From Halorubrum sp. 48-1-W (GTDB lineage: Archaea; Halobacteriota; Halobacteria; Halobacteriales; Haloferacaceae): DNA of 50,433 nucleotides. Positions 26,016 to 28,095 of this stretch are shown here, one piece after another. The notes under the pieces are model-generated. The model saw only the letters and a program-made list of their open reading frames with translations. It ran no database searches and was not told where the DNA came from. Position 1 is the stretch's first letter; each line of letters begins with the position of its first letter. A program made the translations under genes and the position numbers. The stretch is from NCBI RefSeq assembly GCF_003287355.1, contig NZ_QMIM01000034.1:1-50433 (forward strand), read 5' to 3'.

Positions 26016-26420
26016 ATGAACTTCGACGAGTTCACTGGCCAAGCCCAGCACCGACTCGAAACGCCCGGAACGGGCGAAACGGTCCGAGCGATACGGGCGA
26101 CACTCATGACGCTCGGTCAGCGCATTCCCGAGGGGAACGCGGCGGACCTCGCGGCGTCGCTTCCCATCGAGATCAAGTGGTATCTGACCGGGGCAGTCGA
26201 CGAACACGGACAGCGCTTCGACTGGCAGGAGTTCGTCGAGAGAGTGAGCGAGATCGAGGGGTCGGAGCCGGCCGACGCGGCCTATCACGCCCGTGTCGTC
26301 CTCGACCTCGTCCACGAGGAGGTCCCGGAGTCCGACTTCCAGCAGCTCCGTGATATGCTTCCCGGGAGCGAGACCACGGAGAACTGGGGCAACCTCTTCG
26401 AGCTCGTCGACGACGACTGA
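26016..26420 (+). CDS. DUF2267 family protein
   Basis: A 134-aa helical protein. MNFDEFTGQAQHRLETPGTG, ETVRAIRATLMTLGQRIPEG and AADLAASLPIEIKWYLTG are the characteristic DUF2267 blocks, and the second half (FVERVSEIEGSEPADAAYHA) repeats the pattern. The family is common in haloarchaea and bacteria and its biochemical role is not established. The stop codon is immediately followed by the terminal repeat of a MITE-like element, so the natural 3' flank has been replaced. Confidence 0.83.
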   Translation: MNFDEFTGQAQHRLETPGTGETVRAIRATLMTLGQRIPEGNAADLAASLPIEIKWYLTGAVDEHGQRFDWQEFVERVSEIEGSEPADAAYHARVVLDLVHEEVPESDFQQLRDMLPGSETTENWGNLFELVDDD

Positions 26421-26529
26421 TAGTGATTATTGCGATTATTTTCCTGACCACGTCACAAATATCGGTGTTTCAGGCCGTTTGACAGTCGTCTCGTTCCAGT
26501 ATAGCGGTAAAGAGTCGCAATAATCACTA
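26421..26529. mobile_element. MITE-like element, 109 bp, 15-bp perfect terminal inverted repeats
   Basis: TAGTGATTATTGCGA at 26421-26435 is exactly complementary to TCGCAATAATCACTA at 26515-26529. Similarity continues weakly inward for about 9 more bases. The flanks are TGA (26418-26420) and TGA (26530-26532), a possible 3-bp target duplication. The A/T-rich core has no coding capacity. TNA-type 3-bp duplications are known for some IS5-family elements, but the parental IS is not in this window. Confidence 0.75.
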
Positions 26530-26787
26530 TGAGACGTCCTGGCGGGCTCGCGGACCGACCGCGACCGGAGACGCGTCTGCGCCCGTCGAGTTCGGGGAGG
26601 TCGCTCTGAGACGCGGGCCGACGACGGTGCCCGAAGCGCAGGAGCCGCGAGGTCCCCGAGGTTCCGATCCTCCCAGCCACCGCGCCGAGACCGGTCGAGT
26701 TCGGGTGGAGATCCGATCCCGATCCGGGGGAGATCCGATCCCGATCCGGGGGCCTTTTGCCCGCCCGCCGGGTATGACCGGTAACCG
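26530..26787. other. Gene-free interval before e-MtaB
   Basis: With the MITE this makes 367 bp without a gene. It contains a 22-bp tandem duplication (26709-26752) and a weak CCTTTTGC box at about 26753-26760. Long frames on both strands here lack starts and haloarchaeal codon phasing. Confidence 0.55.
26709..26752. repeat. 22-bp tandem duplication
   Basis: AGATCCGATCCCGATCCGGG(GG) occurs twice head-to-tail, just upstream of the e-MtaB promoter region. Confidence 0.85.
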
Positions 26788-28095
26788 ATGGCGACGTACC
26801 ACATCGAGACGTACGGCTGTACGTCCAACCGGGGCGAGAGCCGCGCGATCGAACGCGCCCTCCGGGACGGCGGCCACCGGCCGGCCGACGGCCCCGAGGA
26901 CGCCGACGTCGCCATCCTCAACAGCTGTACCGTCGTCGAGAAGACCGAGCGCAACATGCTCCGCCGCGCCGAAGAGCTCGAAGCGACGACCGCCGAGCTC
27001 GTCGTCACCGGCTGTATGGCGCTGGCACAGGGCGAGGAGTTCCGCGAGGCCGGGATCGATGCCGAGGTGCTCCACTGGGACGCGGTCCCGGAGCACGTGC
27101 TCAACGGCGAGTGCCCGACACACACCCCCGACACGGAGCCGGTCCTCGACGGCGTGATCGGCATCCTCCCCATCGCGCGCGGTTGTATGAGCAACTGCTC
27201 GTACTGTATCACCAAGTTCGCGACCGGGCGCGTCGACTCCCCGTCGATCGGGGAGAACGTCGAGAAGGCCCGTGCGCTGGTCCACGCCGGCGCGAAGGAG
27301 ATCCGCGTGACCGGCCAGGACACGGGCGTCTACGGCTGGGACACCGGCGATCGAAAACTGCCCGAACTGCTCGACCGGATCTGCGCCATCGACGGCGAGT
27401 TCCGGGTGCGGCTCGGGATGGCGAACCCCGGCGGGATACACGGCATCCACGAGGAGCTGGCGGACGTCTTCGCGCGGAACGAGGAGCTGTACGACTTCAT
27501 CCACGCCCCCGTACAGTCGGGCTCCGACGACGTGCTCGCCGACATGCGCCGGCAACACCGCGTCGAGAAGTTCCGGGAGGTCGTCGAGACCTTCGACGGC
27601 CGGCTCGACCACTGGACGCTCTCGACCGACTTCATCGTCGGCTTCCCGACCGAGAGCGACGCGGACCACGAACGGTCGATGGACCTCCTCCGGGAGGTCC
27701 GCCCCGAGAAGGTCAACGTCACTCGCTTCTCGAAGCGCCCCGGCACCGACGCCGCGGAGATGAAGGGGCTCGGCGGGACCGTAAAGAAGGAGCGCTCGAA
27801 GGCGATGTCCGAGCTGAAGATGGACGTCGTCGGCGAGGCGTACGAGTCGATGGTCGGCGAGACGTTCGAGGTCCTCGTCGTCGAGGAGGGTACCGGCGAC
27901 TCCGTGAAGTGTCGCGACTCCGCCTACCGACAGATCATCGTCCAGCGGGCGTCGGACCACGGGGTCGAGGTCGGCGACTTCCTGACCGTCGAGGTGACCG
28001 GCCACAACACCGTCTACGCGTTCGGCGAGCCGACCGGCGCGGGTCACCGCGTCGGCGGTTCCAGGTCCTCGGCCGTGGGAAGCTCCCACCCGTAG
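26788..28095 (+). CDS. tRNA t6A37 methylthiotransferase (e-MtaB/CDKAL1 type)
   Basis: A 435-aa radical-SAM enzyme that adds a methylthio group to t6A at tRNA position 37, converting it to ms2t6A. The N-terminal UPF0004 domain has cluster cysteines Cys11, Cys47 and Cys76. The radical-SAM CxxxCxxC is Cys133, Cys137, Cys140 (RGCMSNCSYC). A TRAM domain is at the C-terminus (VGETFEVLVVEEGTG through FLTVEVTGHNTVYAFGEP). The last ~19 residues (GAGHRVGGSRSSAVGSSHP) look like an extension past a lost stop and overlap the convergent channel gene by 52 bp. Confidence 0.93.
   Translation: MATYHIETYGCTSNRGESRAIERALRDGGHRPADGPEDADVAILNSCTVVEKTERNMLRRAEELEATTAELVVTGCMALAQGEEFREAGIDAEVLHWDAVPEHVLNGECPTHTPDTEPVLDGVIGILPIARGCMSNCSYCITKFATGRVDSPSIGENVEKARALVHAGAKEIRVTGQDTGVYGWDTGDRKLPELLDRICAIDGEFRVRLGMANPGGIHGIHEELADVFARNEELYDFIHAPVQSGSDDVLADMRRQHRVEKFREVVETFDGRLDHWTLSTDFIVGFPTESDADHERSMDLLREVRPEKVNVTRFSKRPGTDAAEMKGLGGTVKKERSKAMSELKMDVVGEAYESMVGETFEVLVVEEGTGDSVKCRDSAYRQIIVQRASDHGVEVGDFLTVEVTGHNTVYAFGEPTGAGHRVGGSRSSAVGSSHP

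Follow-up and report, generated by a model that had tools for sequence, protein, structure and literature searches.

Why does a 109-bp, A/T-rich block begin exactly at the stop codon of a DUF2267 gene in Halorubrum sp. 48-1-W? The original prediction, made from the sequence alone, had proposed a MITE-like element inserted at that codon. Throughout, "the window" is the whole stretch of DNA analysed (contig NZ_QMIM01000034.1, positions 1 to 50,433; 50,433 nucleotides). Our answer is that the block is a genuine MITE-like element that moved recently and is of an already known kind; more specifically, and with a probability of about 0.83, we place it among the non-autonomous transposable elements of the Haloquadratum small-mobile-repeat kind, probably in the HqIRS55 family. 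Positions 26418-26532 read TGA, then TAGTGATTATTGCGA ... TCGCAATAATCACTA, then TGA, and the features of the site are the following.

26016..26420, + strand: DUF2267 gene (PF10025), with the same stop codon in the empty-site relative G023
26415..26420, + strand: left target half, GACTGA, which with GAC at 26533-26535 gives the empty target GACTGAGAC
26418..26420, + strand: left target duplication, TGA, the native stop codon (read directly; single TGA in G023)
26421..26529, no strand: mobile element, 109 bp (98% identical second copy at G000:C5:61685-61793; empty site in G023)
26421..26435, + strand: left terminal inverted repeat TAGTGATTATTGCGA, 15 bp (direct reading and 15-mer search of the window)
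26515..26529, - strand: right terminal inverted repeat, the same 15-mer (direct reading and 15-mer search of the window)
26530..26532, + strand: right target duplication, TGA (read directly; empty site in G023)

Direct reading of 26421-26529 bears out the perfect 15-bp terminal repeats, the TGA at either end, and the placement exactly at the stop of the DUF2267 gene, whose product matches PF10025 with an E-value of 2.6e-34. With up to two mismatches allowed, the terminal 15-mer occurs in the window only at the two element ends (0.01 occurrences expected from shuffles), and a repeat search extends the inverted arms to 33 nt at 85% complementarity. The 109 bp had also been called non-coding, and indeed no listed reading frame is confined to them; in frame past the native stop, the left inverted repeat continues with TAG TGA. 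The "A/T-rich core" holds true relative to its surroundings, the GC content being 0.46 in the core and 0.42 in the element against 0.68 in the window. Downstream, a radical-SAM/UPF0004 gene starts at 26788. Ahead of that gene, at 26707-26750, a 22-bp unit (GGAGATCCGATCCCGATCCGGG) is tandemly doubled, with a single unit in G023.

Was the block inserted here? It is a recent insertion with a 3-bp target duplication, because in G023, a genome of the same genus, the site is empty and TGA stands there only once. In G023 the DUF2267 gene is 97% identical and the downstream sequence 92%; the two matches overlap by 3 bases, TGA, and the alignment reads GACGACGAC-TGA-GACGTCC with the element absent. Seven more relatives aligned at the DUF2267 gene (L085-L091) also lack the element at the gene end.

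The second copy in the same genome (G000, a draft assembly of 3.58 Mb in 69 contigs) sits exactly in the stop codon of purH. Where the own genome reads TCA-element-TCA, two BLAST pieces in G007 overlap by 3 bases, and locus L116 shows TCA only once (TGA when read along the gene). The element is absent from the other relatives aligned at purH, most of which cannot be aligned to the own genome past the gene. Both 109-bp copies have the target CGACTGAG in common. Three further related elements lie on contigs C1, C8, and C10: the one on C1 is also at a stop codon, that on C10 has unequal flanks (TCG/TCA), and that on C8 has a degraded right end. Beyond this genome, the copy at L404 in Haloquadratum walsbyi C23 has an ungapped empty paralogue (L401) with one TCA, and 5 of 140 insertions have an empty match of this kind. 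The original prediction had suggested looking for other genome copies and for empty sites in relatives: the former exist as the one 98% identical copy plus a large, divergent family in other haloarchaea, and G023 provides the latter.

To which family, then, does the element belong? We built a covariance model, R1, from 20 seed members, among them the window copy and, from C23, the copy L049. At an E-value of 0.001 and under strict filters, 21 of 167 genomes from the GTDB family match it, representing 6 of 28 genera, and the rich genomes hold 42 (G043), 56 (G150, which is Hqr. walsbyi C23), and 121 matches (G161). The last of these, the metagenome-assembled genome (MAG) ERR2683608_bin.7, has the highest load seen. 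Among the R1 matches listed, C23 has 53 distinct places. The best E-value is 4.0e-21 in C23 and 9.3e-16 for the window copy, values that are partly built in, both being represented among the seeds. Ends and length are common to the window copy and the C23 copies, and the window copy is homologous to the C23 family.

The end pattern with one mismatch matches 43 of 170 genomes, many of them once and probably by chance. An element in Halovenus salina (Haloarculaceae) is similar to the window copy over its full length, with TGA on both sides, and further hosts include Halovenus aranensis, Salinibaculum litoreum, and other Halobacteriales. After the sister copy, the nearest collected elements are those of Halovenus salina (identity 0.79), MAG SW_9_67_25 (0.77), and Halovenus aranensis (0.72), and these identities suggest transfer of the element between families.

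Mean identity across 25 members is 73%. The window copy is, to judge by its core, an outlying subtype, because outside the ends it is only weakly similar to most members: against 29 of them its core has a mean score of -9.1, compared with -15.9 for shuffled cores (sd 2.8, largest -7.6), and individual members, for example L151, L167, L220, and L388, match it more clearly. This weak similarity counts against our main reading.

For the analyses that follow, 180 end pairs were chosen by their ends (six or fewer mismatches together) at lengths of 104-112 or 78-82 bp, with viral loci excluded; how conserved and how long they are is therefore in part a product of this search, and the flanking triplets were not a selection criterion. 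By length, 152 pairs are 108 bp, 13 are 107 bp, 7 are 109 bp, 1 is 106 bp, 6 are 80 bp, and 1 is 78 bp; the 78-bp pair (L188) is a chance pair in a bacterial locus. The R1 matches listed, for which length was unconstrained, are mostly 107-108 bp too. A contig-wide pattern scan returned at least 116 stretches; most of its rows outside the Halobacteria are single matches and were taken for chance, as were 83 viral stretches.

Some members deserve individual mention. The one at L154 3530-3637 (Salinibaculum litoreum) lies exactly where a long frame ends in TGA, in the target GAC-TGA-GAC. An 80-bp subfamily (L043 1501-1580, L166 3691-3770 and 5096-5175, L215 6746-6825) is flanked on either side by TSA triplets and has ends that resemble TAGTGATTATTGTGA; an 80-bp repeat, HqIRS41, is reported from Haloquadratum in PMC3119063. 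A 220-bp element at L166 5584-5803, whose 15-bp ends are perfect and flanked by TCA, is possibly two fused elements or a longer relative.

The same paper (PMC3119063) describes a class SMR-A in Hqr. walsbyi (HqIRS42, HqIRS43, and HqIRS55), with members of about 110 bp, prominent inverted ends unrelated to transposons, and up to 54 copies. The class is defined there as being without target duplication, prefers the near-terminal palindromes of PATEs and IS605 elements, and moves in a manner its authors call enigmatic; HqIRS55, with 10 strain-specific insertions, is among the most active C23 elements. A 2024 article (PMC11431627) cites C23 nucleotides 1,362,480-1,362,865 to illustrate sequences that often occur near HqIRS55. 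Our family has a C23 member at 1,362,997-1,363,104, starting 132 bp past that stretch, and because this member adjoins the published HqIRS55 neighbourhood, the family is probably HqIRS55.

The likeness to SMR-A lies in the length and the prominent (here 15-bp, perfect) inverted ends of the window element and in the tens of copies in C23. As to the family ends, the partial searches made here found no IS that carries them. There are also differences. A 3-bp TSA duplication is seen here, both at empty sites and in 45 of 46 C23 copies, whereas PMC3119063 gives none; the target is a short symmetric consensus without a centred palindrome, whereas SMR-A is described there as preferring the palindromes of PATEs and IS605 elements; and our family occurs well beyond Haloquadratum. 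We file the element by its homology to the C23 family and not by the class description, because the C23 family, too, departs from the "no target duplication" of that description.

What does the element duplicate, and what does it choose? Identical triplets flank 140 of the 180 pairs, 77 of them TCA and 63 TGA, with no other triplet, and the C23 figure of 45 refers to the 46 copies collected from the 53 places listed. The triplets of the other 40 pairs differ by one base in 29 cases, by two in 2, and by three in 9; one of the 40 is the bacterial chance pair L188, and 24 belong to the metagenome-assembled G161. In that genome these 24 are out of 63 collected pairs, and a few resemble 2-bp repeats (GG, GC).

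Around the triplet, the 140 equal-triplet sites have C at -4 in 100 and G at +1 in 95, A/T at -5 in 109 and at +2 in 106, and G at -6 in 75 and C at +3 in 78. This is the symmetric consensus G-A/T-C-T-C/G-A-G-A/T-C, or about GWC-TSA-GWC, and the empty target at the DUF2267 stop is one of the 10 sites of the 140 that fit it exactly. A true palindrome was considered as the target and rejected, self-complementarity in G150 and G161 being close to background beyond two bases from the target centre. The mixed set gives 0.41 at four bases from the centre and 0.34 at five, and G043 (21 sites) gives 0.48 and 0.43 at these distances and 0.24 at two bases. We read the target as a two-fold symmetric preference, of the sort to be expected of a transposase dimer and not of a hairpin. 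In the literature consulted, at the level of titles and the openings of abstracts, we met no report of this duplication or target.

Does the element seek out stop codons? In the high-GC hosts we counted 87 insertions, that is, the 140 with equal triplets minus the 45 of G150 and 8 in its AT-rich relatives; the 40 unequal-triplet pairs stand outside this count. Genes were called crudely, by length and third-position GC only, and the window's own stop is not counted by this caller. On this basis 31 insertions lie exactly at a coding-like stop, 43 are intergenic, and 13 are inside a called gene, compared with 17, 125, and 101 of 243 control CTSAG sites in the same loci. Stop-codon specificity, which showed an odds ratio of 5.3 against intergenic CTSAG sites (4.0-6.2 across five caller settings), vanished when stops were compared with the rest of gene 3' ends (odds ratio 1.3, p 0.66; 0.87-1.82 with p 0.21-1.0 across the five settings), and we dropped it. 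The excess at 3' ends persists: of the insertions outside genes, 53 of 74 fall at the stop or in the 60 bp after it, compared with 33 of 142 control sites (odds ratio 8.3, p 1e-11). Gene 3' ends are probably where insertions have the best chance of survival, and TGA stops would simply supply TSA targets there.

These observations, together with the fold of the element, bear on two other explanations. As single-stranded RNA the element is predicted to form a stable long stem (z -4.4), with an 18-bp stem built from its ends. On the first explanation the element would recognise gene 3' ends or stops as such, or selection would keep it there, perhaps in the role of a portable transcription terminator. 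Three own-genome copies with clean triplets exactly at TGA stops speak for this, as do the share of stops among the 87 insertions, the strength of the 3'-end enrichment, and the long stem. We nevertheless consider it quite unlikely: stops are not favoured inside 3' ends, there is no orientation bias at stops (16 vs 15), and in C23 only 2 of 45 insertions lie at a coding-like stop, or 6 of 45 by length alone. RNAalifold moreover pairs only the ends on the forward strand (the reverse strand gains two extra short helices), with covariation terms near zero, and a 3'-end excess would arise without any targeting if insertions in promoters and genes were lost. The same stable fold is what could be said for a regulatory RNA or repeat native to the locus, never inserted at all. 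That idea has next to no probability left, given the absence of the block from G023 and the seven other relatives, its 98% identical copy at an unrelated locus, and an Rfam search of the element that found no match up to an E-value of 1.

Our reading as a mobile repeat of the Haloquadratum kind leaves the question of what moves it. The original prediction had looked to an IS with the same ends; the other copies do exist, and no such IS was found in our partial searches. When the end pattern is lengthened to require a base other than T at position 17, it occurs at 9 places in 3 of 391 genomes of the class, all of them carriers of the short element. DDE_Tnp_1 is present in 4 of 4 carriers, and none of the 30 loci read, out of 58 matched, is bounded by these ends. 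DDE_Tnp_4 was found in 0 of 4 carriers. IS30 has symmetric targets and was searched for that reason, with matches in 0 of 6 genomes. We also sought TNA-flanked TAGTGA/TCACTA pairs with equal triplets, 130-4500 bp apart, in 2.4 Mb of loci. Judged by their ends, the six resulting rows comprise a single 220-bp element, three pairs whose ends belong to two different elements, and two in which an element end is paired with a TAGTGA close by. Separately, at L512 and L515 in G043, family elements lie near, and do not enclose, two 72-aa DDE_Tnp_1 fragments.

Could it be a strict MITE, derived by internal deletion from a haloarchaeal insertion sequence, or mimicking the ends of one, that escaped our searches? 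The inverted ends, the target duplication, and the non-coding core are all MITE features, and the searches covered exact or near-exact end patterns, three transposase families, and about half of the DDE_Tnp_1 matches. Set against this, no IS with these ends appeared in the end-pattern, IS30, DDE_Tnp_1, or DDE_Tnp_4 searches, and the Haloquadratum authors (PMC3119063) regard the ends as unrelated to any transposon known to them. We hold this origin to be doubtful, though worth keeping in view. "MITE-like" itself stands for the short, non-coding body, the inverted ends, the target duplication, and a putative movement in trans; an autonomous partner with matching ends, as a MITE in the narrow meaning would have, was not found in the partial searches.

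Among better-known systems, PIF/Harbinger elements have a symmetric 9-bp target in plants, and IS1031 follows a TNA target rule. To our knowledge, ERIC and similar bacterial intergenic repeats are short, of fairly constant length, and have no known transposase; going by that description, our element resembles them in being short and intergenic, of fairly constant length, and without a known transposase. A 3-bp duplication like the one seen here is made by PIF/Harbinger (PMC2213677), with its Tourist MITEs, and by the bacterial relatives of the IS5 group; in contrast, no DDE_Tnp_4 domain was found in the 4 carriers searched.

For our preferred reading, the mobile repeat of the Haloquadratum kind, the mechanism would run as follows. 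A DDE-type transposase supplied in trans would cut at both inverted repeats and join the element to a GWC-TSA-GWC target with a 3-bp stagger, thereby duplicating TSA. TGA being one form of the target middle, the duplication would restore it, and copies at stop codons would survive because the restored TGA leaves the protein unchanged. For the host, the probable outcome would be an extended 3' untranslated region in which the inverted repeats pair into a stem, and the new mRNA 3' end that had been proposed for the DUF2267 gene would be plausible. More speculatively, and on balance improbably, the helper might be a stand-alone or domesticated haloarchaeal transposase not bounded by these ends, which would always use GWC-TSA-GWC as its target and duplicate 3 bp. 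A single enzyme encoded by the host would then have kept a 108-bp parasite moving from one haloarchaeal genus to another and to gene 3' ends, rewriting the 3' untranslated regions there.

What does this mean for haloarchaeal genomes? The 3-bp duplication and the target consensus make the "enigmatic" movement testable, as one can now ask which transposase of the carriers gives a 3-bp TSA stagger. The result also questions the claim, in PMC3119063, that the SMR-A class lacks target duplication, and it adds Halorubrum, Halovenus, Salinibaculum, and others to the known hosts of the family. For those annotating such genomes, it accounts for the A/T-rich block of about 108 bp that starts exactly at the TGA of some haloarchaeal genes.
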